Below are positions 479 to 29,717 of a DNA stretch of 64,000 nt, piece after piece. This DNA is from Membranipora membranacea. Lineage: Eukaryota; Bryozoa; Gymnolaemata; Cheilostomatida; Membraniporidae. The notes beneath the pieces are model-generated. The model was not told the origin of the DNA and did not search any database. It was given only the letters and a program-made list of their open reading frames with translations. Location of the stretch: contig OU612065.1 in assembly GCA_914767715.1 (NCBI GenBank), positions 14,074,001 to 14,138,000 on the forward strand, given 5' to 3'. How positions within the stretch are numbered: the first letter of the stretch is position 1; each line of letters opens with the position of its first letter. Made by a program: the position numbers and the translations under genes.

Positions 479-520
479 CACGCCCTTCCAGTTAATTGCC
501 AATTAACATTGCCCTATATC
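479..520 (+). promoter_or_regulatory. core promoter of acidic gene A
   Basis: A CTATATC TATA-like box begins at about 514, 61 nt before the ATG at 576. A CACGCCC motif lies at 479-485. This is the same order as in the three paralogues (CACACCC box, then TATA box, then ATG about 60 nt later), but the sequence is more diverged. The role is inferred from position only. Confidence 0.45.
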
Positions 521-575: not shown

Positions 576-2476
576 ATGTATTTCCTAGCTACTTCTCTCC
601 TCATCACATTCACTGCAGTTAATGCTGCTCCACTTGTATCTAACGGCACTGAGTACTATGTCTTCACAGCAACAGACAGCAATGTAACAACACAAGACCT
701 TACAACTGATTCAATGGTAGCTACCACCTCAACCTACAATCTGAATGATATGCCATTGCCTGACATTACCGCTGGGCTTAACCTTGGAGAACTTACACAT
801 CCCCAACATGATGTCGAGCAGGATCACTCACATTCTCATGATGATACACATGATGGGTCAGCACCGTCAGATGAAGTTGCAGATGCAACGGTTACAGAAA
901 CAGTACTTATACTGGTGCCTGTAGCTGGCAATGACACAGCTGGAAATGAAACAAAAGGTAAGATAATGATGACTAGTTGCGCAGCAAGTGACTGATTAGC
1001 CAGGTTTATAAATCGTTGATCTAGTAAATGCAATGTTGCATTCTACAAAACTTGTAATAGTTAGCTGGCACTTCTATTGCAGTGAGTGCGATTGTTTATG
1101 CTTGAATTTTTGGTTTTGTACGAAAAAAATGACATTAATGACAAAAACTGTTTCTATTTATTGCTCACACAATCAATTCCATTGTAAAACATCAACCGAC
1201 TCTGCAGGCAGCATATTGAATGTTATTGGGAATCACATATCTCATTTTTTTTGGCATAGGTATATTCGGAGTCAGCACCATGAATAACACTGAGTCAAGT
1301 GATTCGGATGAGTCATCAGAAAGCGAATCATCATCCTCGTTTGACATTAGTGATTATTATGACGATATCAGTATCAGTAACTTTTATGATTTGGAATCAA
1401 ACAGTTCTAGCAGCATGGACGACTCCAACAGCACAATGTCATCTGAGTTCTCTATAGAATCAGGTCAGTTTTTCTTCATACATCATAATGAATTAAATAT
1501 ATTGGAATTGTTGGTTTGACAGTGTTTGCCAAGTTTTTGACAATGTTTTTTAAAACCAACATCCACTGACCATAAGTAAATGCAGGCTGTCTAAGGTCAT
1601 GTAGGTATGGTTGAAATATCAACACATATCTTATCTTGGGCCAATTTGGTGCCAATCATGGATGTGAAAGTATCCCAAAAATGATTGAACCCTACTCAGA
1701 GTCCCAAGAAACTGGTACTGACTAAATGTTTGCATCACAGGCGCCCTACTCCAATGATGTCCTCAAAAACGTGTTTGGCTTTCTGATTACCTTTTGATTC
1801 AAATTTTATTTTCTTACAGACGATGAATCACACGACCACAGCCATGAAGACGATGGAAGTGAAAGTTCTGACGAAGATGGCAGCAAGAGTGAAGAGAACA
1901 GTCAGGAAAACTCGTCTGGTAAGTTTTATTACTTGATGACAGCCAGTGTAATCAGACTCGCATGCCAAGGCCTTCTCATTCCTACTATTTGTTTGCCACC
2001 ACTAATTCAGAGTAATGTTAAAATGGTGGTCTTTAAAATGTTATGAACTGGATACGCTCGACATCACCATTTGTTAGAAAATCTACATTTGATAATGCCA
2101 ATCTGGGGGCACTTTCTTTATTAGGATTGCTTGCGTCAAACCTCAGGAAAATGGCGGTAGACAGGATATCGTCAATCTTTTGTTCCTACAAATACTTCTC
2201 TATTAACGATTCATCTTATTTTTATCTATCTTATCTTGTACTCTGTATTTTGCAGATACATCTGATGATCATTCTGGGTCCAGCTTGAACAGTGATGAAA
2301 AAGAAATCAAACGAAATGAATATCTGGAAAAGGGTATTGACCATTTTAATGATGACATTCATAAAATATTGAACACTGTTGGCAGAGGGCAAATGTTTGG
2401 GAACGCTGCTGTATCCTCACACGCCATCGCTCCGATACTGCTGGCTGTCTGCTCAGTGGTGCTTCGCTTCTTGTAG
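576..2476 (+). CDS. acidic secreted, predicted GPI-anchored protein A (4 exons)
   Basis: Four exons join in one frame, all introns phase 1: 576-957, 1260-1463, 1820-1918 and 2256-2476, giving 301 codons. The donors are GTAAGA, GTCAGT and GTAAGT and the acceptors end in TAG or CAG. The protein starts with a signal peptide (MYFLATSLLITFTAVNAAP). Next comes a Thr/Asp-rich part with two His/Asp clusters (DHSHSHDDTHD in exon 1, DDESHDHSHEDD in exon 3), which are plausible divalent-metal ligands. Exon 2 is a Ser/Asp/Glu tract. The C-terminus has a short amphipathic segment (DDIHKILNTVG) and then a hydrophobic tail (IAPILLAVCSVVLRFL) that ends at the stop, like a GPI-anchor signal. It is the most diverged of the four tandem genes; relatedness rests on architecture, promoter layout and intron phase. 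No known family is recognised and the function is unknown. Confidence 0.72.
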
Positions 2477-2912
2477 TACTTCAATATTTTCCCTCCTTTT
2501 CAAGATACGCTATTTTTCTAGTCAGCTTTCAGATATCTACTCAATAACAGAGTTTCTGCTATTACTCTGAGAAACATGTTTGTGCATTGCCAAGCGATAG
2601 AGTTTTAGGGTAATGTGTAAAGTATGTATGAACCGTTCTATGTAATGTCTTCTGATCACATTCATCCAAATCCATCAGCATCAGCTAGACTAACCCAAGT
2701 GCCATAAATTCCTACTCTGCCACATATATGTTAACGAGCGAGTGTTATACCAAAGAAAAGTTGTCATATTTTTGGGCAATTTATAATTTATAGTGAATGG
2801 CTGGTCCTAACACTTTTTTTTAAATCATTATAAAGTCTCGGCTGGTACTAAGCTTGTTTTTTTATGCATTTTTGAATTTGTAATTTATGAATTTATTATA
2901 CTATTTTGAATT

Positions 2913-2918
2913 AATAAA
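2913..2918 (+). terminator. candidate polyadenylation signal, gene A
   Basis: An AATAAA hexamer about 440 nt after the gene A stop, in a very AT-rich stretch. It may be used, but the hexamer is common in such DNA. Confidence 0.3.
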
Positions 2919-5900
2919 ATAATAATGTTTATGTTAACACACACAATGTGGCAATAAGGGAAATTTATTCATGAATTGTTTAGTAAAGACATAACCATTT
3001 ATAAATAGTTGTTTATGTGGTTATGAGCAAAAAAGTAAGATGAAAACCTGTACATAATACTGTATGTACCCACCAATGTAGGCCATACCCCATCAGTGTC
3101 TTGACTTGTCTTATTCATCTCACCATTGTTATTTCATTGTGTATAATTAAGATGATACTAAAAACTTCATGAGTTACAAAGTCTAAACATTCCTGCCACA
3201 CCCAAAATGATAGTGTGTTAGACCATTGGTCACATTTCAAGTATTGGTTTTGTTTTCAGGTAGCCTGTAAATGACTCTTCTGACGGGAATATTTAGGATA
3301 GCTCATGAGAGGCCCCTTATTCCCCCCCCCCCCCCCCGATTTAAACTGTGGTTGTTGTTCTATGAGTAAAGAATTAGCGTAAAAATAGCTTCATAGAGAT
3401 TACAAATTGTCTTTGAAAACTATAATATATCGACTGAAAGAGTTTGAAAAGACTTTGAGGTATGTCAATCCAGCAGAGCATCTTATGTTACTTATGTAAC
3501 ATAGCAAAGATAACAAATCTGGTCACTAAGCTAGCTACAAAAACGAATTTTGTTGTGACCTAGTATGACATGACATGACCATGTCCAAGGAGAGTCCTTG
3601 TTCTTTTTACGGTATATACACAGTGAAAGTGTTCAGCACGTGAAGCAAATAAAATTCGGAATGGCTCATCATTTACTGTAGCGAGGAAGCGTCTAATGCA
3701 AACAAGCTGGCCAAACATTCTATTTCTACTGATAATTTATGATCTCTGGTATGACAGCTTTCCTGTTGAGGGTGTAACTCCAAATTCAAGTGACATATGG
3801 ACCTTCCTCAATATTTAAAAAAAACTTTTCTCTGCTTATTTTATAGCTACGATGACATTTTCCTTCGCTGCGAACAATATTCCTGAGATTGATGAAACAC
3901 AAAGACAAGAATGTTTATCCAACTTTGAACAAAATATCATGAAAATCCAGTACAAATATTTTCTTTGATGACTTGCATTCGCGTGTTCGTCAATTGTTAC
4001 CGATTTTATCCTAATATTTCGGTGGTTTTTAAGATCTGGTTCAATATTTGAGATTTGAAATGTTTGCTAGACACCCTCCATACAAATAATTACGTTCTAA
4101 TGTCATTCAAATTCTGGATGGTGCGACTTAGCAAGATGAGCAAAACATCATATTTATAATAACGGTTTATGTATCAATATTAATTTTATTATCATTATTA
4201 TTGTTGTTGTACTGCTATCTCACAAGTCATGCTGGCATTCATTCAGCTAACTGAGTCCAGTTCTGATAATGTTTTCTGATGATTTCGTTGGATTTATCAA
4301 ACCTCTCCTAGTTAATGTAGTTAGTCCCTTCTATTCACTAAGACAGTCTCCGTTGGCACCACCCACTATTGGTATAACACTGGCTATGTATTTCACATTC
4401 TGTCCACTTCTCTGACAGCATTATTGTTGTGGACATTAATTTTAGTTTTAGTTCAAACAAATAGATTTGATATAACGTGACACCACAGGGTTGTTTGAAA
4501 AACAAGCCTATTATTAATTTTGGCGTGCGTCCATCTACCTTTCACCTGCAGTCAGGAAAGGAATAAACAGAACCTGCACAGCCGCTGATCACAATCTGTG
4601 GTTGCATATGAAATCATGGGCGATTTTTATTTACGGTGCATTTTAAGGGCAGTTTTTTACATCCTCTTTGTGGGCTGGCTTGGCTTATCCAATGTAAAAA
4701 GTCTTAGCAGCATGTTTTCAAGAGCTAACAAATTGATGTTAAATAGCTATCAAATTATCTTAATAGAACAAACAGAACACAACTTGATGTGCTAGTTTGC
4801 CTCCTCAGATCAAAAGGTTTGAATTTGTTGAGCTCTGCATATTTATTCAGAAATATTGACCTCTCGTTTCACATTCCCAGCAATCACTGCTGGGTCACTC
4901 TGAGAAGAAAATTTGGCAAATTGCTTTGGTGACTCACAATAAAAACCTTGTTTGTTTCGGGTGGAGCTGGGAGAGCAACTAATAATTCTCACAAATTGAT
5001 GTATACTGTCACATCTGTGGCCTTCAACCCTGTAGATGATTTGATCAAAGGATTAATTTGATGTTACTGCGGATTAAAATTATGGCAATAAACATCAAAA
5101 ATAGAATTGGCACAAACAAAAAACTTTATAAATGTGCGTGCTATGAATTCTGAAATAAGTAACACACCCACCCTAATTCACATGAGAAAAGGAAATAATG
5201 TGAAGGAGCTGTGTGCCAAAGCATCTATCATCTATCTGTCAATAAAATGATATCTGATCACGTTTTTGAACATGTTGTGGATTCAATTTGAGAAACACTA
5301 TGCTGTGTAGTTTTTTAATTGTGCGTGCCTTGAACCAGACCAGCCTGACCGACTATTTGACCATTCACTGAAAGATTTAGAAAGACAGACAACATGCCTA
5401 GACGATTGGCCCTTAATCTATTCAGGGGCCTCCTCCCTATTGCCACACGTCATTGAATTAGGTCAGGTCAATGATCCCTTTCATTACAAAATTTAAATTC
5501 TCTGAATCTTTCCAAAAATAACAGACACCCGAAGGTGTGGCATCCTCATGTCATTTATGAGAACAATGAAGGGAGGGTCCCTTATACCACTATAATGAAG
5601 AATCACTACGTTCCCAAGGTTCGATTTTGTAAGGATTTCGGGAGTAATCGCCCCATGGAAATGGCATTAAAATCAAATTCCGATTGTGACGAATGACTTT
5701 TTGGATGCGAATATCCATACCGTGTTTATTCAACCTATTTCCTAATTGGCGCTGTGGCTAACGCGTGCTTGCACACAATGCCTTCAAAATCAAAGCATGG
5801 GACCATAGTGTTAGTGTGTGTAATACTGACCAACATATTTCTTTTACAAATTTCTCGTTTTTGTCTCATACTATGGTAAATAAGTTTTAAATAAAGACAG

Positions 5901-7111
5901 ACTAAGCTAGTTTTGGCCCAAGCAAGTTTTTGAAACTTAAATTTTAATGCCATGCTGTTTTTATCAAACCAAAGTAATTAATTGTAAACATACAACATTT
6001 TTGATAATGTGACATTATCAGCTAGCCTGTAAAAGGTGCAATAATAGACCTAAAATATTATTTAGACTATGGGTGCACCCTTGATTATTTAAAAAAACAA
6101 ATATCTTTTCCCGTGAGTTTTATCCAATTCTTAGCCTTTTATCAGGCTGCATGGGAGATTGATGTGACCATAACGCATAGGTGAGATTAACCAGCCATAA
6201 GACGATAATAGTAATGGAGTGATGTAGATGGAGTTCAAGTGCGGATTTATTTATTGATCATATCCTCATGGGGATTGTTGAAGGGACGGTTTGATGTCTG
6301 GATTATGAGAAAGTTAAGTATCATAATACATGCAGCAAAGGGGGTCCAGACCCCTGAACAAAAAGGCTGATGGGTGTGGAATGACTCTCGAAAGATTATA
6401 AAGAGGTGCATATTGCCAATGCCTCAAAAGTCCACGCCTAAGGGTGTTTGGTATTTCACTGCAAATACTTTGTTTAGATATTTGGCAATTTTAAAAAATT
6501 TCATCTAAATAACATTGTAAGCATTTTTTCGGGCTCCACAGTCCTGTTTATGCATCCACAAACAGGGTGGAACACATTTTATTACCTTGAGATGATATTA
6601 GCATAAATAATTTGTATTGAGGTACATTAAATCATGAACTTAACATTTAAAACAAAGGGGGATGTCAAAGGGCACTCTGATTGATAGCTCTTGATTGATG
6701 GATTTGATTTTTTAGCAGATGACAACAGATTTCAGGCCTAACTTGGTAACAATTTTAAGCTTGGCAAAGCTCTTTTTTGCTAATACATCACTAAAATGTC
6801 TCATCGATTTCAAAATCAATCAATATAGGTGGATGCTTATGCATTTTGACATGTTGCATTTCGCTGCCAAGTTTTGCTTCCAAACATCCTTGATCAAATG
6901 AAACCATAATCAAAACAAAGCCGATATTATAGCTGTGGTTCCAGCTAAGATAAAAGTTATGTAATATGGCTACACATCTAACTTGTGGTAGAGCTGCATT
7001 TATACCACAGACTTTTGGCGAGTCTTTACGATAGATCATATAATAGAAAACCTGATCAATTAATCAAGACAGAAAAATTGTCCAAAGAATCTGCAGGATA
7101 AAACTTGCAGT

Positions 7112-7496
7112 TTAAAGGGCAACCAAGGTTTCAAACAGCTTCTCATTGATGGCCATTGATTAATAGCAGATTGCACCATCTGCATGGGGAAAAAGACAAA
7201 ATATAATTCGGATGATTATTCAGCCAGAATTCTTGTGAAACATTTCTTCCATCAGGCACTCAAACTCAGCTAAAAGAGAATACCACATAGCAGTTTCCTG
7301 TTCCTGTTATTATTTAGCCTGTGCTCTATAATTATTACAGCAAAGTCTTGGAACCTCCCCTAAACTGAAGTGTTACCCAGCTTAGAGTCAGCAACTACTT
7401 TGAGTTTTGCATCGCGTAATGCACAAAGCTGATGCTGCCCAGCACATTATTTCCTACCCATTAATGCATTGCTGCGAAACCTTGGTTGCCCTTTAA
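7112..7496 (+). mobile_element. TTAA-flanked MITE, copy 1
   Basis: A 385-bp element, counting the TTAA at each end. The termini are inverted repeats reading AGGGCAACCAAGGTTTC on the left and its complement on the right. It has no ORF. Copies 2-5 elsewhere in the window are close to identical, so the family moved recently. The TTAA target duplication suggests mobilisation by a piggyBac-type transposase; this is inferred, as no transposase gene is present. Confidence 0.88.
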
Positions 7497-8354
7497 GGTA
7501 TAATAATGCCTATAAAAATGTTGTCCGATTTAGCTGATTGTGACCATCTAGGAAGGAGAATTTTTCTGAGGGGATTGAGGACGTCATGACCAAATGAAAA
7601 TCACATATTATTCTGAAATGGGAACTTTGTAGAATAGAGCTTGAATTGGTTTTCTTTTTAGGTCTCCTGTCAAGTCAGATCGCATGACTAATTATTTCTG
7701 ATAACTTTGATATTAACTGCCTAGCTCTGTCTCACTTCACTTCAATGTATTTTGCGGTAGAGGAATAACTAATTCTCATGTAACATGCCATTATACATAA
7801 TTATAAAACTTGCAGCAATGACTATTTAGTATTTAGTATCTCTGAGTATTTTAGTATCTTTGCTTACAGGAACGAAAATGAGACATTCCTATCGGTACTG
7901 TTACTCATAATGAATTCATGGGCGTAAGCAAAATGAAGTTCTTGTCACCATGGAATTGACCGAATGGATTGCAGGGAGATAAGTGAGAAATACCACAAAA
8001 TAACACAGCAGATGTGCCAATATTGCAAACAAGATTCTGATTGGCTCAAATGTTGATACTAAAAATAAATCAAACCTTCTGTGCCATGGAACTATCCCAA
8101 CTCCATGACATATGACTTTTTTAAAACAAATTTTCCTGATTTCTTACTAACATTAATCTTGTCTAAAATGAAGTTGATTAATTAAGATGGAAATGTATGT
8201 TCAGACACACAACTATAACACATACATAAATTTAGAAGCTCAAATTTTCTCTGCAAGTATAATAGCCAGGACTACCTCTCAGATATCTCTTTTTATGCAC
8301 ATATTAAGACTTTTAATCAGCTGACAGCATACATTGCCAAGTGTACATCATGCC

Positions 8355-8392
8355 CATAGATTTAAAAAACAGTACTGTTTTTTAAATCTATG
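8355..8392. repeat. 38-bp perfect palindrome between 9-bp direct repeats
   Basis: Two 19-nt arms are exactly complementary with no loop (centre AGTACT). The 9-bp word ATCATGCCC occurs on both sides, which looks like a target-site duplication around a tiny palindromic insert. The outer C and G of the palindrome overlap the repeats. The origin is unknown. Confidence 0.8.
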
Positions 8393-10268
8393 ATCATGCC
8401 CTATTTACAAATATAATACTCAAGTCTCGATGTCTCCATGGAACTCTATGTATGACCTTCTGAAATTACATATGTCCACCTTTTTTGGAAAATATGAAAA
8501 GACCTTAGTGGCTTTAGGGTATTTTGTAATACATAACCAATAAATGTTACTAACCTTGTGAATTAATTTCAACTATTTGAGAAGTGTCAGGTTTTTAAAT
8601 GGTTCAATTCAGTTTATATATTGGTAATGACGTCAGGAAAATATTGTACAACAATTGAAAACTCGGGATATTACAACATCAAATATTTTAACTAGAACTT
8701 ATGACTTGATCTGATAAGCCTATTTTCCCATGTCTTGTGAATGAAATGTGTCTAGCCATGACTTCCATAAAGCGATGTTTTAGGTGGTTGCAGGGTGAGG
8801 TTTATGGGTAGGCTATCGACCATGTGTTATTTTGTGTTTTCTAAATTATTATTTCACTACATTATATCTCACAAGGAATGAGGGTGAAATCGCATTCCGT
8901 TGTATAAATTGAACACAAAGTTGATTTGACACAAATCTTACTGAGGAATAAACTAAGTTACCGTGACGAAACACTATTACAATACAACATGAACATATTC
9001 TATCTCCACAATGTTCTAAAAATAAAGATAAAAATAGGCAAGGCTATATAATTACATTGATGGCTCAACGGTTTTCTGCAGAATCAAATTAAAATTCTAT
9101 GAATGGTATATCAAAGAAAAATCACCATGCAGCCTTCGCTGGCTGGGGCAAAAACAATGCCTAATCAGACACCAGGTCTGCAACTGCAGTTAATAGATCA
9201 TGTAATAGGTAAAAAATTCAACATCGCATATAAACATGTATGATGACATCTCCGTTGTTGGGAAATAATGAACTTTACCAAGCCAAACCTAGATGTCAAA
9301 AGTAATGGGGCAGTCGAATCAATTTTTTGCAGTTTCCTACAATAAATTGAACTTCTTAAAGTCCATCATCATCCCGTCAATGACAACTCTCCTTTATATG
9401 AGAAAAAGTGAATTAAATGTTTACATTATAGATTCATTGGATTCATGCCAGGAGAGATCATTATGTATGAATAGGATAATAAATGATAAGATTGGATAAG
9501 ACTGATTTATTAGCAATTTCTTCATAAATTGAGCAGAATGAAATATTAAATATGCACCCGGAGATCTAAAACTGACAACTTTCTATTCATCTTTTACACA
9601 AATAGATGACACTTCAGGTCACTATTCACTAAAAGTGCATTGTATTTAAATAACCTAGCTGTCCTTGAACCATGAAGAAACATCTGAAAACGCATAAAAC
9701 CAGAAATTACTTCACTTGCATAATACTTATTTAGCTTTAATACAGCACTCTAATAATTATAATCACGAATGTTAATATTACTCTTTTGCAGCGAAACAAA
9801 TAATTCAATATGGTACAAATTCTGGCTGCTGGCTGGTATGTTCTATCAGCCTTTCCAGATCAAAACCTGCAGCGATCAAGTCAAACTGGAGATGGTGCTT
9901 TTCTCCGAAGTCAGAAATAAATTTAATGCATAGTTGTGTTACCAGATATACCGATACAAGCAAAAAGCTACGGTACAGTCATGCGGAAAATTTACATGGA
10001 AGGCAGGAAGAGAGGTTTGCCAAATTATAATAATTACATAACCAAACACAAGAATTTCTCTGTTTACATCAAAAAACAGAAAAATTAGCATACAAAATAT
10101 CTTGCAGTTTGCACTGTAATAACACCAAGTACGTTAAATGAATGTGGACCTGGAGCTAGACTCCAAAGGTGTGTCTGATTAGCATAACCAACAGCATATC
10201 TGCCCACCAACCATTGTAAAACATGTGTAATGACACACAATCTCCAAGGGATACCTCAGTACGACATA

Positions 10269-10302
10269 CACACCCCCTTTTGTTTGAACAGTGAATAAAA
10301 GT
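10269..10302 (+). promoter_or_regulatory. core promoter of acidic gene B
   Basis: CACACCC at 10269-10275, then a TATA-like AATAAAAG near 10294, about 61 nt before the ATG at 10355. The 5' leader just before the ATG (GCAGGCAGGTCA) is nearly identical to that of gene C, which supports recent duplication of the promoter and first exon together. Confidence 0.6.
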
Positions 10303-10354
10303 CATAGAAATATCCAGAAATGATCATAAACGCTTCAACTGCAGGCAGGTCAAC

Positions 10355-13300
10355 ATGAAGCTCACAATTCTAGCTCTATTTGCTCTCTTGGCATTAACTG
10401 CAGCAGCCCCATATGGATCCACCGAGGATGCTGGTGATGATGAAGCTGCACCAAAAGTAGCTACATGGGAGGAAGCCGGTAGTGCAGGCGCCGCTGGTGA
10501 TACCGAAAATGAAGGTGAGGACGCTGCAGGCGCTGATGCTGCAGGTGTTGAGGAAGGTAAAGGTGATGAAGATGATACTGAAAATCATGTGGATATAGAT
10601 AGCGATGCTGGCACTGATGATAATGTTGATGCCGGTGATGTTAGTAACGATAATGCTGTCACTAATGATGTTGCTGACAATAATGCCGACACTGATGCCG
10701 GCGCTGCTGGTTACGATAATGCTGACACTGATGCCGACACTGATGTTGGCGCTGTTGATAATGATGTTGCTGACACTGATGCAGGCGCGGTTGATGATGA
10801 TGTTGCTGACACTGATGCTGACACTGGTGTTGATGACATCGTTGCTGACACTGATGACGGCGCTGTTGGTTACGATAATTACGACACTGATGCCGGCGCT
10901 GTTGATGAAGATGTTGCTGACACTGATGATGGCGCTGTTGATGATGATGTTGCTGACACTGATGCCGGCGCTGTTGATGAAGATGTTGCTGACACTGATG
11001 ATGGCGCTGTTGGTTACAATAATTACGTCACTGATGCCGCCGCTGTTGATGAAGATGTTGCTGACACTGATGCCGGCGCTGTTGATGAAGATGTTGCTGA
11101 CACTGATGATGGCGCTGTTGATGATGATGTGGCTGACACTGATGATGGCGCTGTTGGTTACAATAATTACGTCACCGATGCTGCCGCTGTTGATGAAGAT
11201 GTTGCTGACACTGATGCCGGCGCTGTTGATGAAGATGTTGCTGACACTGATGTTGATGATGATGTTGCTGACACTGATGATGGCGCTGTTGATGATGATG
11301 TTGCTGACACTGATGATGGCGCTGTTGATGATGATGTTGCTGACACTGATGATGGCACTGTTGATGAAGATGATACAGTCACTGATGATGCTGAGACTGA
11401 TGCAGGTGCTGCTGATGATGATGTTGCTGATGATGATGTTCGTGACAATTATGCTGACACCGATGGTGGTGATGATGCAGGTGGATATGGGGAAGGTAAG
11501 TGTTTATTGTTATATATCAATATTATCAAATTTAATTGTTTCCCTTCAATTATAAAATTATTATGTAGCAGATTGACGTTGCAATACGAAATCATTTTAG
11601 CAAAATGCAAAAGTGCAAGGCAATATAGCAATTTTAGGGGTATAAAAAATAACCTGCAAAATCACTTTTGAGATCGCAATTCATTACGATACTGTTGGCT
11701 AGCAATGCACCAAAAACTCAGAGAGATAAGAATACTTTCCCCATTCTTTTTTTTAAAACTTTATTAGCATAACTTTCAGTTAATTAAAGTATTTTGTTCA
11801 AAATTAGCCACGGAGAAAAGAGAAACAAAATATAAAAGATAAATTTATCCATTCAAGATAGAGACTATTATTTGGCATGTTATGGAGTTAATGAAATACT
11901 AAATACATGAACCTCCCAACCACTCCCCTACTTGATGTCAATGTTGAGAATGAGAGTATTATTTCGAGAATTTAGGGATATTAGATGCTAGAAATTAGCT
12001 TCACAGCATTGCATAAAGGTGAATTTGAATTGCAAGATAATTGTCTGAGAGCTTTGACTGGCAGCTTTTTCTGGCACATTCGTCTGTACTTTTAACAATG
12101 CAATAAATTTTTACGTTCAATGATAACTTACATCATTAAAAAAGATCCATCAGACAGTACACTAATATTAATTTGCAATATAAAGTCGCCTTTTTTAAGC
12201 AAGTTTTAACTCAATTATCTTGTGCAGTTACAGACGATGCCTCTGATGATGTTGAATATGGAGGTGATGAAGGGGACAACAATGGAGATCAAGATGGGGA
12301 TGAATACAATGTTGATGATGCAGTAGATGACTCTAACGCTGATGACTCCGTAACTGGTTCAGTAGATGGTTCTGACACCGCTGATGGATATGAAGGTCAA
12401 GGTGGAGATGAATCTACTGGTGATGTTTCGCTAGATAGCGCTGACGCTGTTGACCCAAAAGATGTATCAGAAAGTGATGACTATCAAAGTGCATCAGAAG
12501 CAGATGATACTGACGATGCGACTGATGGAAATGATGGCCCTGATGGAGGTGATGGCTATGGAGTTCGAGAAGATGAATCAGTAGATGGATCTGACGGAGG
12601 AGATGGTTATGGAGGACAAGGCGGAGATAAATCTACTGGTGATGACCCAGTAGAAGGCTCTGATGCTGATGAGTCAGTCGCTGATGTTGATGATGTTGAT
12701 GATGTCTCTGGTGGAGCTGATATCTTTGATGGAGCTGATGTCTCTGATGGAGTTGATGGCTATGGAGGACAAGACGGAGATAAATCTACTGGTGATGACC
12801 CAGTAGAAGGCTCTGATGATGATGTTTCAGTAGATGGCTCTGACGCTGGTGAGTCGGTCGCTGATGCTAATGATGTCTCTGATGGAGCTGATGGAATTGA
12901 TGGCTATGGAGGACAAGATGGAGATGAATCTACTGGTGATGAGTCAGAAGAAGGCTCTGACGCTGATGTTTCAGTAGATGGCTCTGACGCTGATGAGTCA
13001 GTCGCTGATGTTAATGATGTCTCTGATGGAGCTGATGGAGCTGATGGAGTTGATGGCTATGGAGGACAAGACGGAGATGAATCTACTGGTGATGAGTCAG
13101 AAGAAGGCTCTGACGCTGATGTTTCAGTAGATGGCTCTGACGCTGATGAGTCAGTCGCTGATGTTAATGATGTCTCTGATGGAGCTGATGGAGCTGATGG
13201 AGTTGATGGCTATGGAGGACAAGACGGAGATGAATCTACTGGTGATGAGTCAGAAGAAGGCTCTGACGCTGATGTTTCAGTAGATGGCTCTGATGCTGAT

Positions 13301-15387
13301 GAGTCAGTAGATGGCTCTGATGCTGATGAGTCAGTCGCTGATGTTGATGATGTTGATGATGGAGCTGATGTCTCTGATGGAGTTGATGCCTATGGAGGAC
13401 AAGACGGAGGTGAATCTACTGGTGATGACCCAGTAGAGGGTTCTGATGATGATGTTTCAGTAGATGGCTCTGACGCTGATGAGTCAGTCGCTGATGTTGA
13501 TGATGTCTCTGATGGAGTTGATGCCTATGGAGGACAAGACGGAGATGAATCTACTGGTGATGACTCCGTAGAACGCTCTGATGATGATGTTTCAATAGAT
13601 GGCTCTGACGCTGATGAGTCAGTCGCTGATGTTGATGATGTCTCTGATGAAGCTGATGTATCTGATGGAGCTGATGTCTCTGATGGAGTTGATGGCTATG
13701 GAGGACAAGACGGAGATGAATCTACTGGTGATGAATCAGTAGAAGGCTCTGATGATGATGTTTCAGTAGTTGGGTATGATGCTGATGAGTCAGTCGCTGA
13801 TGTTGATGATGTCTCTGATGAAGCTGATGTCTCTGATGGAGCTGATGTCTCTGATGGAGTTGATGGCTATGGAGGACAAGACAGAGATGAATCTACTGGT
13901 GATGACTCAGTAGAAGGCTCTGATGATGATGTTTCAATAGATGGCTCTGACGCTGATGAGTCAGTCGCTGATGTTGATGATGGCTCTGATGGAACTGATG
14001 TCTCTGATGGAGTTGATGGCCATGGAGGACATGACGGAGATGAATCTACTGGTGATTACTCAGTAGAAGGCTCTGATGATGATGTTTCAGTAGATGGCTC
14101 TGACGCTGATGAGTCAGTCGCTGATGTTGATGATGTCTCTGATGGAACTGATGTCTCTGATGGAGCTGATGTCTCTGATGGAGTTGATGGCTACAGAGGA
14201 CAAGGCGGAGATGGATCTACTGGGGATGTTTCAGTAGATAGCTCTGATGCTGATGAGTCAGTCGCTGATGTTGATGATGTCTCTGATGTATCTGATGGTG
14301 TTGATGGCTACGGAGGACTAGGAGGCTCTGATGCTGATGATTCAGTAGGTGGCCCTGATGCTGATGACTCAGAAGATGGCTCTAGTGCTGATGAAGGATC
14401 AGAAGGTGTTGAATCAGAAGATGAATCTAATGCTGATGACTCTGGAGAAGACAGTGCTGGCATAGATGGGTATGGAGACAATGGGGATGATGATTCAGTC
14501 TCAGGTGAACACTCAAGTTATAGATCAGATTCTGATGATGACTCCACAAATCGATCCGATGATGGTGATCATTCTGGCTCAGATGATAGATCAGGCTCTG
14601 TTGATGATTTGGGATCTCAAGATTCAGATAATAACTCGGCCACTGACTCAGGCGCTGATTCTGGCAATGAATCAGATGACAACTCTGCCGCTGAATCTGC
14701 TGCTGACTCTGGCGATGACTCTAACTCAATTGAGATGAACGACAGTAGCCATGAGGGTGACAGCTATGGCAGTGTTGAAGAAAGTGATGGTGGTAGTGAC
14801 AGCGGAGGTAAAGGAGACAGTGGAAGTGAAGGGTCTGATTCAGATTACAGCTCAACAGAACACAAAGACGGAGAGGACAGACATGATGATGGTGTGAAAT
14901 ATGAAAATGGAGGCAGTGATGAAGGTACAGATGGCAATGAAGGACCTGATGAAGGTAAAATATTGAACAGTATGAACGATCAATCATATCCCCTCAGTTA
15001 AACAGCTGAAACTTGTTTTGATGAGAAAAGAGAAGATGTTACCTAACATATATGAGTACATGAGAGTATCAGAGTATTTGATGGAAATAACTGTAAAATT
15101 GGTTTGTGCAGTGACAGTCTTGGCAGGTTATCTTAAATGTATAGTTACTGAGCAAAATTGTTTGATTTTGTTATTTACCCAGTGCTTTCTCTTTTCTAGA
15201 TGATCTTAGCAGAGTCCTGTCTAAGTTTGGCGTACAATTAGAGGGAAAAGCTGATTCAGAGCTTAAGAAAATACTGAGTGATGCTGGAGTAGGCAGCCTT
15301 GCAGATTTATATGGTAGCTCAGCATCCTCTCTCAGCGGATTATTCTCAATGATTGTGGTCTCTCTTGCAGCAAGATTCATGCTGTAG
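10355..15387 (+). CDS. very large Asp-rich secreted, predicted GPI-anchored protein B (3 exons)
   Basis: Exons 10355-11495, 12228-14954 and 15200-15387 give 1352 codons including stop, both introns phase 1. The second exon may start 6 nt later, because there are two tandem AG acceptors. The signal peptide is MKLTILALFALLALTAAAPYG. Exon 1 encodes Asp/Ala/Val/Gly repeats of about 12 residues (core DVADTDDGAVDE). Exon 2 encodes about 11 copies of a Ser/Asp/Gly unit of about 51 residues (cores GYGGQDGDESTGD and SDADESVADV), then a Ser/Asp-rich region. Exon 3 encodes the shared C-terminal module (LSKFGVQLEG, LKKILSDAGV, YGSSASS) and the hydrophobic tail FSMIVVSLAARFML. The body has almost no Cys or aromatic residues apart from Tyr in GYGG. 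The polyanionic, repetitive make-up is typical of Ca-binding or mineral-matrix proteins, but that role is inference. Its closest relative is gene C. Confidence 0.85.
10750..11370 (+). repeat. 36-nt coding repeat array in exon 1 of gene B
   Basis: A tandem array of units of about 36 nt encoding variants of DVADTDDGAVDE, with occasional GYNNY-type inserts. Neighbouring units are nearly identical at the DNA level, so the array is likely length-polymorphic. The other two frames are also open over long stretches because of the repeat, giving spurious Leu/Met-rich and Ser-rich ORFs. Confidence 0.8.
12601..14330 (+). repeat. about 153-bp coding repeat array in exon 2 of gene B
   Basis: About 11 tandem units of roughly 153 bp (51 codons), each starting near GGAGGACAAGACGGAGATGA. 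Adjacent units near 12900-13260 are almost identical, pointing to recent unequal exchange. Unit lengths vary by blocks encoding DVSDGA or DGSDADES. Assembly collapse here is a risk. Confidence 0.82.
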
Positions 15388-15979: not shown

Positions 15980-16260
15980 CTAATTGGCTGTTGTCCTGTT
16001 CGGGTGGCTGTTCTGCAGGCTTCCCAACTCAATCAGTGAGTGCCATCGTACTCTATGGTAAACGTCACTCCTGTCTTGAGGTCAGATTTGATGGTGTTCC
16101 TCCACTTCTGCTTTGGCCTCCCTCATTTTCTTCTTCCAGCAATCTTGAGATCAGCTATCTTTCTAAGTTTGGTTTCACATTTGCTTCGTACAAGATAAAT
16201 GGTGCTACCAGTTGCCTCCAACATCTCAATATTCCTTCACCATCACAAGTCTGACAGCAT
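15980..16260 (-). mobile_element. decayed retroposon-like coding fragment
   Basis: Read on the - strand, one frame gives DLKIAGRRK, a stop, then GRPKQKWRNTIKSDLKTGV. The GRPKxxW pattern resembles the end of many non-LTR retrotransposon polyproteins in invertebrates. The in-frame stop and short length mark it as a relic. The assignment rests on this motif alone. Confidence 0.4.
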
Positions 16261-18554: not shown

Positions 18555-18928
18555 CCAAGGTTTCAAACAACTTCTCATTGATGGCCATTGATTAATAGCA
18601 GATTGCACCTTCTGCATGGGAAAAAAGACCAAATATAATTTGGATGATTATTCAGCCAGAATTCCTGTGAAACATTTCTTCCATCAGGTACTCAAACTCA
18701 GCTAAAAGAGAATACCACATAGCAGTTTCCTGTTCCTGTTATTATTTAGCCTGTGCTCTATAATTATTACAGCAAAGTCTTGGAACCTCCCCTAAACTGA
18801 AGTGTTACCCAGCTTAGAGTCAGCAATTACTTTGAGTTTTGCATCGCGTAATGCACAAAGCTGATGCTCCCCAGCACATTATTAGCTACCCATTAATGCA
18901 TTGCTGCGAAACCTTGGTTGCCCTTTAA
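18555..18928 (+). mobile_element. TTAA-flanked MITE, copy 2 (5' end truncated)
   Basis: Same orientation as copy 1. The right end is intact (GGTTGCCCTTTAA), but the left end starts at CCAAGGTTTC and lacks the first AAAGGGCAA. Otherwise it is nearly identical to copies 1 and 3. Confidence 0.85.
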
Positions 18929-21827: not shown

Positions 21828-22212
21828 TTAAAGGGCAACCAAGGTTTCAAACAACTTCTCATTGATGGCCATTGATTAATAGCAGATTGCACCTTCTGCA
21901 TGGGGAAAAAGACATAATATAATTCGGATGATTATTCAGCCAGAATTCTTGTGAAACATTTCTTCCATCAGGTACTCAAACTCAGCTAAAAGAGAATACC
22001 ACATAGCAGTTTCCTGTTCCTGTGATTATTTAGCCTGTGCTCTATAATTATTACAGCAAAGTCTTGGAACCTCCCCTAAACTGAAGTGTTACCCAGCTTA
22101 GAGTCAGCAACTACTTTGAGTTTTGCGTCGCGTAATGCACAAAGCTGATGCTGCCCAGCACATTATTTGCTACCCATTAATGCATTGCTGCGAAACCTTG
22201 GTTGCCCTTTAA
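21828..22212 (+). mobile_element. TTAA-flanked MITE, copy 3
   Basis: A full-length 385-bp copy with TTAA at both ends and intact inverted termini, in the same orientation as copy 1. Confidence 0.88.
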
Positions 22213-22427
22213 CGAGATTGAATCTCAGTCAGACCGCTACCTACCTGTCATGGAATGAATTCTTGAGGTGGGCCAGGTAGTTCCTGAGAAACAGCAGAAG
22301 TGGCGATATATGACGAATAAGATATGATGTCACAAACTTGTTGCAGTTATTTATTTTGCTCAACACCTGGCTTTATTGGAATAGAACTTCAGAAACAAGA
22401 ACAGAGAAATCCTTTAGGCCTCAGTTA

Positions 22428-22775
22428 TTAAAGGGCAACCAAAGTTTCGCAGCTATGCATAAATGGGCAGTAAAGAATTTGATAGGCAGCATTAGCTTTG
22501 TGCATGACGCAGCGCAAAACTCTATGTAGTTGCTGACTCTAAGTTGGGTAAAACTTCAGTTTAGGGGAGGTTCCAAGACATTGCTGGAAGAATGATAGAG
22601 CACAGGCTAAATAATAACAGGAACAGCTGGGTTAGAGTAGCTGATGGATGTAATGTTTCACAAGAATTCTGGCTGAATAATCGTCCGAATTATTTTTTTT
22701 ACTTTTTCCCTATGCAGAAGGTACAATCTGCTATTTATCAATGAGAAGTTGTTTGAAACCCTGGTTGCCCTTTAA
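22428..22775 (-). mobile_element. TTAA-flanked MITE, copy 4 (diverged, inverted)
   Basis: Lies only 215 bp from copy 3, in the opposite orientation, with TTAA at both ends. It is shorter (348 bp) and visibly more diverged than the other copies, so it is probably older. Confidence 0.85.
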
Positions 22776-23137
22776 GGCATGTAAATATCTAGAAGTAAAA
22801 TTGAATGAAATGTTTTAAATCTGATCATCACTCTCTTCCCCTGATCCTGAAAGTCAGAACCCCAAATTTTTCCTAGTGTTTTACATCAAATTGAACAGTA
22901 CTACAATTCTTCTGAATAAAAATACACATAATGAGGTTAACTGGTAAAAAAACTTGAGATATTAGCATGACAAATATTTTTTTAAGATCCCATCTGGAAT
23001 TATTAATACAGATATTTTGATCAAGCCCTAGGTGTGCCGCATTAGTAATGCAACTCTACACCAGCCCATAAAACGTTACTCACCACAAACTGAGAGGTAT
23101 GTCTAAAATTATGACGTTAACTTGGCAAAAATTGAAG

Positions 23138-23166
23138 CACACCCAACTGAAAGATAAATATAAAAC
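23138..23166 (+). promoter_or_regulatory. core promoter of acidic gene C
   Basis: CACACCC at 23138-23144 and a TATA box TATAAAAC at 23159-23166, 59 nt before the ATG at 23218. The arrangement and spacing match genes B and D. Confidence 0.65.
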
Positions 23167-23217
23167 AGGAACACTGCCAGATATTATCAGAAATATATCC
23201 GCTGCAGGCAGGTCAGG

Positions 23218-25157
23218 ATGAAGCTCACAATTCTAGCTCTTTTTGCTCTCTTGACAATCACTTCAGCAGCCCCATATGGATTCACTGAGGAAGCTGGTGA
23301 TGTTGCTGCACCACCAGTAGCTGGAGGGACACAGTCAGGTAGCGCAGGCTCTGCTGGAGAAAATGGAAACAAAGTTGATGAAGTTGCAGATGCTGCTGAG
23401 GGTAAAGGTGTCGAAGAAGATGTGACAGATGATATTGATACAAAAAGTGATGCTGATGCTGACAGTCTTGATTATGGTGTTGCTGATGGCAACGGTACGG
23501 CTGAAGATGATGACGTGATCGATGATGATGCTGGTGTTGATGCCACTGGTGGTGCCAACGGTGATGCTGTTAATACTTTTGCCAATAATACTGCTGCCGG
23601 TAGTGCTGATGACGCCAGCGGAGACAATGGTGCCAGCAGTGATGATATTGGAAATAAAGGTGAGAATTATATAAGAAATTATGAGTCAATCTGAGAAATA
23701 TTTGTTGTGATTTGTCAAAAGCTGTTTAACTCTTCCTATTTTGTTTTCACTAAAATTTACTTTTCATCAAATTATTAACATAGCAGTTTCGCTTCCATTA
23801 ATCGCTATTCTTTATGCCCATGGCGGTCCATGTACAGGTTTTGGCAAGCATATACTATTGACTATGAAAACTATTGACACAATTCAATATCGTTACAGTT
23901 GAGGGCGGCGATCAGTCAGATGGATCAAATGGCAAAAATTTAGGGCATGGTGGATCAGCTGGTGATTCGGATAACAAATTAACTGGTGATGATTCCATTA
24001 CTGATGTGCCTGATGGTGTCGATGACAAAGGTGATGATGGAGATGACTTTCAGAAAGACTCTGATGATGGTAACGGAGGCCAAGCAGGAGATGGATCAGA
24101 CAGTGATGTCTCTGGGAATGATGGAATCAACGGAACTGATGGCAGTGATGGCTATGAAGGTCAAGTAGGATACACTCCAGATGCTGACGACTCTGGCAAT
24201 GACAGCTCTGGCAATGACAGCTCCGACAGTGATGACTTTGGTGACGATGAGTCTAATGGCAATAATTCCTTGGATGATTCTGAAGAGGGAACTGAGGTTG
24301 GTGATGGTTATGGAGATCTCGATTCTGTAGACTCTGTGGATGGATCTGAATTGAAGGATGGATCTTACTTGGGAGACAGCTCTGCCGTGGGAGATGATTT
24401 CGATTCAGGAGAAGGATCAGAAACAGCAGATTACTCTGAGCCAGAGGATGGCTCTGTCTCAGGAGAGCATTCTGAGTCAGAACATGGACCAGACTCAGGG
24501 GAAGACTCTGTCTCAGGAGACCAGTCCGATTCAGGAGATGACTCTGTTAGCTATGAAAGTGATTCAGGAGATGACTCAAATGATGATTCCCACAATTCAA
24601 ACGAGGATAGTGATAGCAGCGATGGCAGTGAAAGTGGGGATGATAGTAGCGCCAATGAGAGCAACAGCGGAAGCAGCCAAGGTAGTGAAGATGGTGACAG
24701 TGATAGCGATGATAGTGATGATGACAGTGATGTTAGCAGCCATGATTCAAGTGGCAGTGATGGTGACAGCGACAGCAATGTCAGTGATTGTGATAACCAA
24801 AGTGACAGTGAAAACGATGGTGACAGTGGCAGCAATAGCGGAAGCCATGACAGCAGCAGAAGTGATAGTGGCAGCTCCAGTGAGGGGTCCAATTCTGATG
24901 ACAGCTCTGCAGAAAATGATGATAGTGTCGGTGAAGACGTTGAAGTGGGTGCTGCCAGAGAATATGGGGATGGTTTAAACAGTATTTTGTCTAAGTTTGG
25001 CCTCAAATTTGAGGGAACAGGCGAGAAAGAGCTACAAAAAATACTGAATGACGCTGGAGTTGCAAGCCTCACTGATCTGTATGGTAGCTCTGCATCCTCA
25101 GTTAGCGGATTTTTCTCACTCATTTGTGTTGCTCTGGCAGCAACATTTATGCTTTAG
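23218..25157 (+). CDS. Asp/Ser-rich secreted, predicted GPI-anchored protein C (2 exons)
   Basis: Exons 23218-23659 and 23899-25157 are joined by one phase-1 intron, giving 566 residues. The signal peptide MKLTILALFALLTITSAAPYG is almost the same as in gene B. Exon 1 is Asp/Ala/Gly-rich. Exon 2 begins Gly/Asp-rich, then turns into a Ser/Asp/Glu region (for example SGDDSNDDSHNSNEDSDSSD) resembling phosphophoryn-type sequences with many acidic-kinase sites. The C-terminus carries the shared module (LSKFGLKFEG, LQKILNDAGV, LYGSSASS) and the tail FFSLICVALAATFML, consistent with GPI attachment near SSASS. Unlike genes B and D, the acidic region and the C-terminal module lie in one exon, so an intron was lost here or gained in the others. 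The function is unknown; Ca binding is inferred from composition. Confidence 0.85.
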
Positions 25158-25550
25158 ACGGCACAACAATTTGTTTACCCTTAATTTTATCATTTTTGTC
25201 ACACTCGTATCTTAGATAAGCAGAGGCTGAATTGAACGGACAGATCTTTCACCCTGTCAAGCCATATGGGTTGCCTCTGTCGGTCACAAGGACCAGTATT
25301 ATTGATAAGTTATCTTATTGATAGATTTTCAAGAAAAGTCACCCGGATATGCAATCACATTGATAATTATATCAGCTCTAATCAATTCACGACATCATTA
25401 GTTGACATTATATTGTATTGTTATATTCCATCTTCATTTAGAATTGTTACAGTATTGTCTACTAACAGTTGTTTCATACCATGTAATGGTTTCATTCCAA
25501 CAGTATTTCTTCAAATTGAAACCTGACTAGTTTTTTTTCAAATTACATAC

Positions 25551-25556
25551 AATAAA
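25551..25556 (+). terminator. candidate polyadenylation signal, gene C
   Basis: AATAAA about 395 nt after the stop codon of gene C. Position is the only evidence. Confidence 0.35.
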
Positions 25557-26671
25557 TTGTATCAGTAAAGTATTAAATCAAACTGTATATATAAATATGT
25601 ATCCTCAATGCACTCAATGCATTGTCTGTCGGGGCTGTTGAAAATACTGATATTCATATCAGTTTGACACAAACAATCAAACAAGTTGGCGATATACAAT
25701 GTAAAAAGTGCAAGAAATGAATTTAAATATATCATTGTTATGTGTGGCATGAATCACATTGAGTGCCAGCCACATTAGTTTTCCCCCTCATGCGCAAGCA
25801 GAAGACAAATTAAATATTACTATAAAGCGCCTAGTCCTAAATCTAAATTATACCTATATGTATTGAGTTATCCAGTAATAGTATTCGGGTTGAGTTGAGA
25901 GGTTACAAGAGCCATTTGGGGAACTCGCCATACTGAGTTTGACATGAGATGTATCAGCAGTATGCACGTATAAACTATTGATGAGAGGGTTAGCGCATTG
26001 CTACATAAATAGATTGAAATTAACTCAAATCATATTATGAAAGAGTAGCAGGGCATTTATCTTGAAAAGAAATACTGAAATTTGGTGGACATGTTCTAAA
26101 TGAGGTGAAATTGCCGATTCAATCATCAATTTTGTATCCAACTGTCCAAACAAGTGAAAAACTGAGGGAACTTCCTCACAGTCCTCTAAATCCTAGATAT
26201 TGCAATCATGCACAAGGTTACAAATACGGTTAATTATTCATTTGTCCGAAAGATTCAACACCAACGGATGCTCAATCAAATGACACATGACCCCTTGACC
26301 TGCCTCTAATTTGACTGAGTAATTATGTTATATACTCTAGTAGTCAATGCATAAATCAGGGTAAGAAAGAAAGAAATCTATCTTTTTTCTTTCTTATAAC
26401 TCAAAAAATTATTGGAAAAAGATATGGTGTGCTTCACGCATTTATAACCGAAAGTGACCATCAATGCCGTTGTAATAATTATATTGTTTGGCAGACAAGG
26501 TACTTACCATGCATAAGATATTGTTAATCTGGTGCAGAATTGACAAACAAAACTGTATTTATTTTCAGTGAAAACCATAGACTTAATAAAAAGTCTTTGG
26601 CGAAAACAGAAAATTGTCTAACTGTTTAAAAGCTTTAGAAGGGATGGCGGGTTTCGGATTAATATATATAT

Positions 26672-26707
26672 ATTCTTACTAAGAAGAGAAACAATCTTAG
26701 TAAGAAT
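26672..26707. repeat. 12-bp arm hairpin
   Basis: ATTCTTACTAAG and its exact complement are separated by 12 nt. It lies between genes C and D with no T-run or gene end next to it, so there is no reason to call it a terminator. Confidence 0.6.
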
Positions 26708-27388
26708 GCTCTTTCTCTCATAGGTTCTTGAATCTACCATGACCGCCCAACCTCCCATGGGCTATTGTAAGCTCCTCTTGTGGAGTATGGGGTTAATCCC
26801 TGCCTCCAATGCGTTTTAATGATAAATAAATAGCATATATAAGTCCCTAATGAGCTGATTCTGACATAGAATATTAAATTATAGAATTTTTAGGCCATTC
26901 TATTGTGCATTCTAGGGGAGGCAGAGTGTCCCTGCCTCCCCTAGAACTACGGGCCTGTAATGGGATTTTAACTGAAAACTTATTTTTCTGTATCATGTTT
27001 AGAGTTTGCCATTTTTTTTTTGGCTTTTATTATCTCACTATAGATTTATGGGTGTGTTTGTGAATAAATAATTCAACCAAAATAACCAGATAATTCCATG
27101 CCAAATCCAGGTTGCTAGTACCACTTATAGGAGATAAATAACATACTTATAACTAAGGTTACTTAGGTAACTTAAGCCACAATTATTAACATTGCTAACG
27201 AAATGGATTAATTGCAGTACAAAGATCTTTTGGCCCTTTCAACTGCCACAATTATTCATGATTGTGTTGCAAATCTGTAGTGGCCTATCATAGTGGTTTT
27301 TTCATGACTAATAGTGATTGGTAGGGAACCTAATTATCATAAAAATATGCGCACACATGCTCCATTGCGTCAAGGCAGTCATGGTGTA

Positions 27389-27421
27389 CACACCCATTTG
27401 GTTTTTAGCCGTCTATAAAAG
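27389..27421 (+). promoter_or_regulatory. core promoter of acidic gene D
   Basis: CACACCC at 27389-27395 and a canonical TATAAAAG at 27414-27421, 58 nt before the ATG. This is the clearest TATA box of the four paralogues. Confidence 0.7.
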
Positions 27422-27471
27422 CAGGGAACAATAAACAGCATGCACACAAGTCAAACAGCAGTACAGCCAAG

Positions 27472-29717
27472 ATGAAGTTTGTGATTGTAGCTTTTTTTGC
27501 TCTTGTGGCGCTAGTTTGCACAGCTCCCTATGGAGATAGCCCAGTGGATAATACTCAAACAGCGGACCTAGGGCGTCAGGCTGATTCTAATGGTGCAGAA
27601 GATGGAAATGACCATCAAGATATTGATACAGCAGATATGGAAGAGCAAGATGGAGGTAATCCTGAGGTTGACACGGAAGATATTACAGAGCCAACCACTG
27701 CACAAGTTGCAGAGGCAACCACTGTACAAGTTATAGAGGCAACCACTGCTCAAGTTGCTGATACAACCGATATGGAAGAGCTAGATAGTGGTAATCATGA
27801 AGTTGATACAGAAGATGCTATAGAAGCAACCACTGTACAAGTTGCAGAGACAACCACTGCACAAGTTACTGAGGCAACCACTGCACAAGTTACCACTGTA
27901 CAAGTTACCGAGGCAACCACTGTACAAGTGACAGAGGCAACCACTGCAGAAGTTGCTGATACAGCTGACATGGAAGAGCTAGATAGTGATAACCATGAGG
28001 TTGATACAGAAGATGTTATAGAGTCAACCACTGCACAAGTTGCGGAGGCAACCACAGCACAAGGTAATTTTAACAGGAAAAAAATTAGCTCTGTTCAGGA
28101 GGGAGCTGTTATGCAACATTATATCATTTCAAACCCCTTACTATCATTTCTGAAGCATATTTGTGACCAAGATAATTCCTTTTTTTCAGATACTATCTAT
28201 GTTACTGATGCAACGGGTGGACATGATGCCGATAAAAATGATGAAATGGATCAGGACGAAGGTGCAGAAACTCAAGATATATATTTGACTGATGAAGAGG
28301 AGGAAACCAAACCATCAACAAATATGCCTGATGATACTGACAACATATCTACAGAGGACTTCAATGACACCATATCATCAATTGCATCAAGTGAACTAAG
28401 AGATGACGATGCATCCAGTGTCCAAGATGAGTCAGCTACTAGTACAGATGGAGAGATTGATGACAGCGTTGAGAGAGGAGAAGATAGCAAGGATGGTGAT
28501 GCTTCCAATGATGGCTTCAATCCAACAAGTGAATCAGTTGATGAAACAGATTCTGCAGAAAATCCTGATGACGTCTCATCTGGTATTTTAGATGATGGAC
28601 CTAAAGAGTCTGACAGCAGCTATGATTCAGTGGAAAGCACCAATATCGATGAGGAAGCAGACAATGAGGGAGATGATTCTCATGAATCTGATGTCAGCAG
28701 CATTGATGGAGACAGCGATGATAATTCAGAGGATGATATCGACTCAGATGATGATATCAATTCAGATGATGACATTGACTCCGTTGGTGATATCGATTCA
28801 GAAGGTACCAGTGATGCAGATGAAAGTGATGGCAGTGAGAGCAAAGAAGAGAGTGATAGCAAGAGTGACTCTGCAGACAACAGTAACTCCGCTGATGACA
28901 GCAACTCCGCCGATGGCAGTAACTCCGCCGATGAAAGTAATTCTGCCGATGACAGTAACTCTGTCGATGACAGTAACTCTGCCGATGAAAGTAATTCTGC
29001 CGATGACAGTAACTCTGTCGGTGACAGTAACTCTGCCGATGAAAGTATCTCCGCCGATGACAGCTACTCCGTTGATGATAGTAGTTCTGCTGATGACAGC
29101 AACTCAGCAGATCGCAGTTACTCTGCCGATGAAAGTACCTCCCAAGATGATAGCAATTCCCAAGATGATAGTGACTCCCAAGATGATAATGACTCCGCAG
29201 AGAACAGCAGCTCAGAAGATGACAGTGATAGTGAAAGTGATGGTGATTCAGACAGTCAAGAGAGTAATGAGGCTCAAACTTATTACAATGTTGCAGCAGA
29301 ATCTAGCAAAGAAGGTTTGTTTCATAAATTATTGAAGTGTGATAACTTACCTCAAAAATATTTTTCATCACATTTGACATGGAACAATTCTCTACCATTT
29401 GCAGTTTCTAATCGAAATAATTGTTATCAAAATACAGCTGATGTTGATGATGCTGTTCATAGATTCACTGGTGATTAGATTTGAACCCTCATTGTAAATC
29501 ATGTCTTGCATTCATGAGTTAAAAAATTTCCATTACAGATGAACTGAGAGTGCTGCTGAACAAATATGGACTAGATCTTGCTGGCTCAGAAGAAGATCAT
29601 CTACAGAGAATACTTGATCAAGCAGGCGCAGGAGGACTTGGCTACAACTCTGCCTCCTCCATTACTGCAATGTCCTTGCTGATGATGACAGCTATTGTTA
29701 TCAGATTTATATTTTAG
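27472..29717 (+). CDS. Thr-rich and Ser/Asp-repeat secreted, predicted GPI-anchored protein D (3 exons)
   Basis: Exons 27472-28063, 28190-29314 and 29539-29717 give 631 residues, both introns phase 1. An extra 33-nt in-frame exon at about 29440-29472 is possible but unproven. The signal peptide is MKFVIVAFFALVALVCTAPYG. Exon 1 encodes Thr-rich heptads (EATTAQV/EATTVQV) set in a longer repeat with DMEELDSGNHEVDTED, resembling an O-glycosylated stalk. Exon 2 is acidic and ends in about 15 Ser/Asp hexapeptides (DDSNSA type), then QDDSDS runs. Exon 3 encodes the shared C-terminal module (LNKYGLDLAG, LQRILDQAGA, YNSASS) and the tail MSLLMMTAIVIRFIF. It has the same layout as B and C but a different body. 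The composition suggests a phosphorylated, glycosylated polyanion at the cell surface; this is inference. Confidence 0.83.
27700..28063 (+). repeat. Thr-rich heptad coding repeats in gene D
   Basis: Repeats of about 21 nt encode EATTAQV-like heptads, grouped in blocks separated by DMEELDSGNHEVDTED. They look like mucin-type O-glycosylation sites. Confidence 0.7.
28876..29130 (+). repeat. 18-nt Ser/Asp coding repeats in gene D
   Basis: About 15 units of 18 nt encode DDSNSA-like hexapeptides. The pattern recalls dentin-phosphophoryn-style Ser/Asp repeats by convergence, not homology. Confidence 0.75.

Follow-up and report, generated by a model that had tools for sequence, protein, structure and literature searches.

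In the skeleton of the coral Acropora millepora, the acidic proteins SAARP1, acidic SOMP and SAP1 carry predicted glycosylphosphatidylinositol (GPI) anchors (PMC4043741). Proteins with a Reeler domain are described from gastropod shell matrix (CfSMP1), the red-coral skeletome and, as galaxin-like Cal16, a calcareous sponge; for such proteins the CfSMP1 study refers, in addition, to the larval shell proteome of a mussel. Wernstrom et al. 2022 (PMC9484238) argue that mineralization was lost in the phoronid-bryozoan stem and came back in some subclades of bryozoans, and a 2026 Flustra genome paper states that the genetic basis of bryozoan calcification is still to be investigated (PMC13326412). 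An acidic or GPI-anchored bryozoan skeletal protein was not found in the accessible open-licence literature, a scope that leaves out paywalled work, among it the review of 2015 by Taylor et al. We analyzed a stretch of 64,000 nucleotides (the window; C1:14,074,001-14,138,000) on chromosome 1 of Membranipora membranacea, a bryozoan whose zooid walls are described as calcified (PMC10290214). The window contains four plus-strand genes, A to D, which likely encode anchored acidic surface proteins, and a fifth predicted member, Z, lies just outside it. Genome searches covered 339,339,785 bases in 18 contigs; the published assembly tzMemMemb1.1 is given as 339,374,674 bp in 21 scaffolds (PMC10290214).

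Gene models were predicted from the DNA, with exon borders set by eye from consensus and frame. The spliced models of A to D contain no internal stops, and all eight introns are GT-AG and in phase 1. An earlier note on this DNA had proposed a tandem family of four genes with phase-1 introns and one promoter layout. Its coordinates are exact, running from the ATG of A at 576 to the stop of D, which ends at 29717, and both features recur in our models, including a TATA-like motif at a nearly constant distance from each ATG:

576-2476, plus strand: gene A, 301 amino acids, 4 exons
515..519, plus strand: TATA-like motif of gene A (-61 from ATG)
576..957, plus strand: gene A exon 1, signal peptide, Thr/Asn-rich part and His/Asp stretch
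1260..1463, plus strand: gene A exon 2, Ser/Asp-rich
1820..1918, plus strand: gene A exon 3, Asp/Glu/Ser-rich
2256..2476, plus strand: gene A exon 4, C-terminal module, hydrophobic GPI-type tail and stop
10355-15387, plus strand: gene B, 1351 amino acids, 3 exons
10295..10300, plus strand: TATA-like motif (ATAAAA) of gene B (-60 from ATG)
10355..11495, plus strand: gene B exon 1, signal peptide and Ala/Asp/Val repeats (36-bp units)
12228..14954, plus strand: gene B exon 2, Ser/Asp/Gly repeats (periods 135 to 180 bp)
15200..15387, plus strand: gene B exon 3, C-terminal module, hydrophobic GPI-type tail and stop
23218-25157, plus strand: gene C, 566 amino acids, 2 exons
23159..23163, plus strand: TATA-like motif of gene C (-59 from ATG)
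23218..23659, plus strand: gene C exon 1, signal peptide and Ala/Asp-rich part
23899..25157, plus strand: gene C exon 2, Ser/Asp/Gly body, C-terminal module, hydrophobic GPI-type tail and stop
27472-29717, plus strand: gene D, 631 amino acids, 3 exons
27414..27418, plus strand: TATA-like motif of gene D (-58 from ATG)
27472..28063, plus strand: gene D exon 1, signal peptide and Thr-rich TTAQV(A/T)EA repeats
28190..29314, plus strand: gene D exon 2, Ser/Asp body with SNSADD repeats
29539..29717, plus strand: gene D exon 3, C-terminal module, hydrophobic GPI-type tail and stop

The motifs sought (TATA[AT] or ATAAAA) make up a loose set that was fixed after sight of the sequence. With a chance of 0.0235 per 4-nucleotide window, four of four genes would match at a preset offset with a probability of 3e-7, or roughly 1e-5 by our own estimate if the offset is freely chosen. 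The common position suggests that A to D may be co-regulated.

We examined both ends of the predicted proteins. An N-terminal signal peptide with small residues near -1/-3 is seen by eye in the translations of all five members. Each ends in a 15-residue stretch with a mean hydropathy of 2.08-2.45, located 0-3 residues from the stop, and small residues provide rule-based omega-site candidates in every case. The interior 19-residue hydropathy maximum is 0.25-1.26, nothing like a membrane helix. Among 108 other open reading frames of at least 60 amino acids in 30001-64000, one has a hydrophobic tail and none combines a tail with the omega rule, although this control is loose because these frames are mostly non-coding. 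The signal peptides, net charge and rule-based tails of A to D bear out their earlier description as a local set of secreted, polyanionic proteins with tails of GPI type.

Between these ends, the bodies differ in their Asp/Ser-rich composition as had been described. The net charge per 100 residues is -20 in A, -35 in B, -26 in C and -30 in D, and Asp accounts for 12.0, 28.5, 20.5 and 19.3% of residues, respectively; the computed isoelectric point (pI) is 4.05 for all four, a value that looks like the floor of the calculator. The bodies have at most one Cys and at most one Trp each, 4 to 9 N-glycosylation motifs, 8 to 17 S-x-E motifs and 15 to 86 [ST]-x-x-[DE] motifs. The latter two are substrate motifs of secretory-pathway kinases, and the Ser-rich acidic repeats could be phosphorylated by such enzymes. 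In D, the Ser/Asp repeats are under purifying selection, with a ratio of nonsynonymous to synonymous differences per site (pN/pS) of 0.26, or 0.24 with no pair dropped. Pfam scans at E <= 1 returned no family, Reeler (PF02014) included, for A, C and D or for the three exons of B scanned singly.

The claim that both ends are kept holds within B, C and D. Their tails align with z = 28.5 (B-C), 10.9 (B-D) and 10.4 (C-D) in Smith-Waterman comparisons against 1000 shuffles, and their heads find one another in tblastn searches (B-C, 2e-12; B-D, 1e-4; C-D, 0.001). The B/C tail is under purifying selection (nonsynonymous rate dN 0.206, synonymous rate dS 0.813, dN/dS about 0.25). Judged from these alignments, B, C and D form one secure family. 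For A the claim has to be restricted: its signal peptide resembles those of the others in type only, and its tail scores z = 7.9 with D, 3.9 with B (reached by 4 of 1000 shuffles) and 2.3 with C (35 of 1000). Profile tests of the tails are likewise strong inside B/C/D and weak across the groups. Since A-B and A-C are weak and A-D and A-Z stronger, we place A in the family via D and via Z. When the tails of C, D and Z were searched against the genome, members of this locus alone came back, plus one chance-level match (E 2.8); these searches were seeded and miss distant copies, those with C and D did not list A, and that with Z recovers it. No match at E <= 10 was obtained for the C tail (52 candidates) or full-length Z (3759) in a protein collection that seems to be without such animal proteins, a null we read as a gap and not as evidence of novelty because even Reeler-bearing Z found no relative. 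Sequence searches of the PDB gave seven matches for the Reeler part of Z (best E 0.069) and two for the tail alignment (best E 0.35), none significant. An AlphaFold model of the tail from five rows (mean predicted local distance difference test score 57.7, helices only) was not used as evidence. In the signal-peptide region of B and C (10355-10420 versus 23218-23283), dS is 0.09 (1.5 differences in 18 sites) versus 0.81 in the tail; because silent sites are near-identical at the signal peptide and not at the tail, the 5' parts look as if recently converted or exchanged.

We searched for further tails in 100 kb upstream and 90 kb downstream of the window and found one more copy, at window -1493 to -1260, with 45% identity to the tail of A (E 2e-16). 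It belongs to a gene about 1.3 kb beyond the window edge:

L011:6558-8743, equal to window -3442 to -1257: gene Z, predicted 399 amino acids, Reeler domain, linker and GPI-type tail

The four-gene family proposed earlier exists but is incomplete, Z having been missed because it lies outside the window. The domain is a clear match to Reeler PF02014 (E = 6.1e-18, 66.1 bits, cut-off 21). Genome-wide, we counted 17 exon-level Reeler hits, 14 of them above the cut-off, including that of Z. The 3-kb loci of 12 of the 17 were inspected for an acidic body beside other Reeler genes, Z being among the remaining five, and none was seen, although a more distant body would be missed. Four exon-level hits fall within 12 kb at G000:C6:28176423-28188385, possibly another tandem Reeler cluster. 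The members can be arranged as a series, in which Z has domain, acidic linker and tail, A an acidic body with a related tail, and B to D a greatly expanded body. It is plausible, if somewhat short of an even chance, that the acidic members derived from a Reeler-GPI gene. We hold this derivation at plausible because the tail link between A/Z and B/C/D is modest and because one genome cannot show direction. The neighborhood of Z is suggestive since Reeler proteins occur in biomineral studies, but the domain is one of general extracellular occurrence.

How might such proteins act? The signal peptide would very probably direct each protein into the secretory pathway, where the C-terminal tail would be cut and a GPI put in place, leaving the protein tethered to the outer side of the plasma membrane. 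The Asp/Ser body, which is disordered and probably phosphorylated, may then bind calcium and mineral precursors, forming a dense brush on the skeleton-secreting epithelium. This brush, or ectodomains shed by cutting of the anchor, might concentrate Ca2+ and stabilize or limit mineral in the extrapallial space by the calcified wall; an anchored polyanion might also hold amorphous precursors or keep crystals away from the membrane. We regard a role of A to D in the skeleton as somewhat better than even. The fuller proposal, in which at least five tandem genes include four for GPI-anchored secreted polyanions acting at the calcifying epithelium, appears to us evenly poised. As to origin, a Reeler-linker-GPI gene that still adjoins the array may have lost its Reeler domain and expanded its acidic linker. 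More tentative still is the extended scenario, in which linker amplification, loss of Reeler and multiplication of copies gave new skeletal polyanions and a cheilostome-specific anchored calcification coat.

Several points weigh against this skeletal reading. The GPI call was made with simple hydropathy and omega-site rules, set by us and permissive, in place of a trained predictor. The link of A to B and C is weak taken alone. The acidity of the Z linker is no more than moderate, with a net charge per 100 of -13 across residues 169-325 and -20 across its last 55, and the TATA-like motifs of Z lie at -109 and -19, with none near -60. The B repeats show little purifying selection (pN/pS 0.70-0.78), with mismatches by codon position of 45/58/51, and neither measure bore out codon-by-codon selection on them. 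Acidic low-complexity bodies are found outside biomineralization too. Finally, cheilostome mineralization is described as 'remote' from the epithelium, so that nucleating mineral directly at the membrane would be a less natural role; mineral nucleation is possible, and a calcium-sequestering or crystal-repelling surface coat fits remote mineralization about as well.

The strongest alternative, to which we assign a low but appreciable probability, is a GPI-anchored polyanionic glycocalyx unrelated to mineral. Such a coat, of mucin-like, anti-adhesive or hydrating kind, would cover tentacles, gut or the surface of the larva and work by charge repulsion and water binding. The logic of the tail would be identical, sequence alone proves no mineral binding, every body of A to D carries N-glycosylation motifs, and the Thr-rich repeats of D could be O-glycosylated. 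Yet overall Thr is just 4.2% in B and 3.5% in C, the selected Ser/Asp repeats of D appear more phosphoprotein-like than mucin-like, the animal calcifies, and a Reeler gene adjoins. We consider it unlikely that the tail is just a C-terminal transmembrane helix on a secreted matrix or adhesive protein, from which the ectodomain would be released into the skeleton, the cuticle or an adhesive of the larva. The tail is indeed hydrophobic up to, or nearly to, the stop, and shedding of membrane-anchored matrix proteins has been proposed in corals (PMC4043741). However, a GPI signal fits better because the stretch is short (~15 residues) and has an Arg near its end in A, B and D, and because a cytoplasmic basic cluster is missing. 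Calcium-buffering or metal-binding surface proteins for ion handling rather than skeleton are quite improbable: His/Asp-rich A has 13 His, with HPQHDVEQDHSHSHDDTHDG, but B, C and D have 6 to 8 His in longer proteins. A frame artefact, with tandem GAT-rich DNA open by chance, would account for the long open alternative frames over the B, C and D bodies and for the lack of third-position bias in the B repeats, but is very improbable: the signal peptides and tails, the splice sites with introns all in phase 1, the spacing of the TATA-like motifs, and the purifying selection seen in the B/C tails and D repeats all speak against it.

The five-gene cluster is flanked by an HROB-like gene, whose Pfam match of 26.7 bits is under its own cut-off of 30.8, and by FAN1. 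Two features were annotated in the remainder of the window:

37827-42097, minus strand: FAN1-like nuclease gene (Pfam FAN1_TPR 62.5 bits, FAN1_HTH 34.9)
53102-53392, plus strand: CCCH zinc-finger exon (Pfam zf-CCCH_3, 54.7 bits), presumably ZC3H11A-like

A second FAN1_TPR piece (21.3 bits) is below cut-off, and long minus-strand open reading frames reaching 45627 may belong to the FAN1-like gene. We also noted 5.2 copies of a 15-bp unit, 98% alike, at 34756-34833, and a duplication of 58 bp without mismatch at 47347-47463. Outside the window, some 9 kb at about -22250 to -12440 are tandem-repetitive and satellite-like, with several frames open on both strands.

We compared A to D with known mineral-associated proteins. 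MSP130 is a GPI-anchored surface protein on the skeletogenic (mineral-forming) cells of sea urchins but belongs to a different protein family. The mollusc proteins Aspein and Asprich share an extreme Asp content with A to D, but are not known to have a membrane tail. The earlier note had taken membrane tethering to mark a distinct system, a claim that is not borne out in that form: the acidic GPI layout is a known kind, since it is shared by SAARP1, acidic SOMP and SAP1 of coral, which are acidic, have a signal peptide and a predicted GPI anchor, and were found in skeleton (PMC4043741). SAARP1 and acidic SOMP have Asp-rich regions, as do A to D, with 20.4% Asp and a pI of 3.92 given for SAARP1 in the same source. 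A to D have the SAARP/acidic SOMP layout (Asp-rich, pI near 4, signal peptide, predicted GPI), a match of layout only and not homology, and it was probably reached independently in coral and bryozoan. Likened by the available description only, B, C and D are longer (566-1351 amino acids) than SAARP1 (386), stand in tandem and lie beside a Reeler gene. In Crepidula, CfSMP1 and CaSMP1 share the Reeler domain with Z; CfSMP1 also has a disordered end, and in Z an acidic low-complexity stretch comes after the domain. The passages on these proteins describe the disordered part of CfSMP1 as mainly Gly/Gln and mention no acidic linker or GPI tail (PMC9365450, PMC11401363). Unlike these proteins, A to D lack a Reeler match in the Pfam scans. 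A to D appear to be promising candidates for the control of skeleton building in M. membranacea, and the locus supplies named candidates, a C-terminal probe independent of low-complexity sequence and a possible source gene. If the proposed origin is true, the birth of skeletal polyanions would be visible in one chromosomal neighborhood, and in a phylum for which loss and later regain of mineralization have been argued. Set beside the coral and gastropod proteins, what is new here is the bryozoan host, the tandem array, the common C-terminal module and the source-gene hypothesis.

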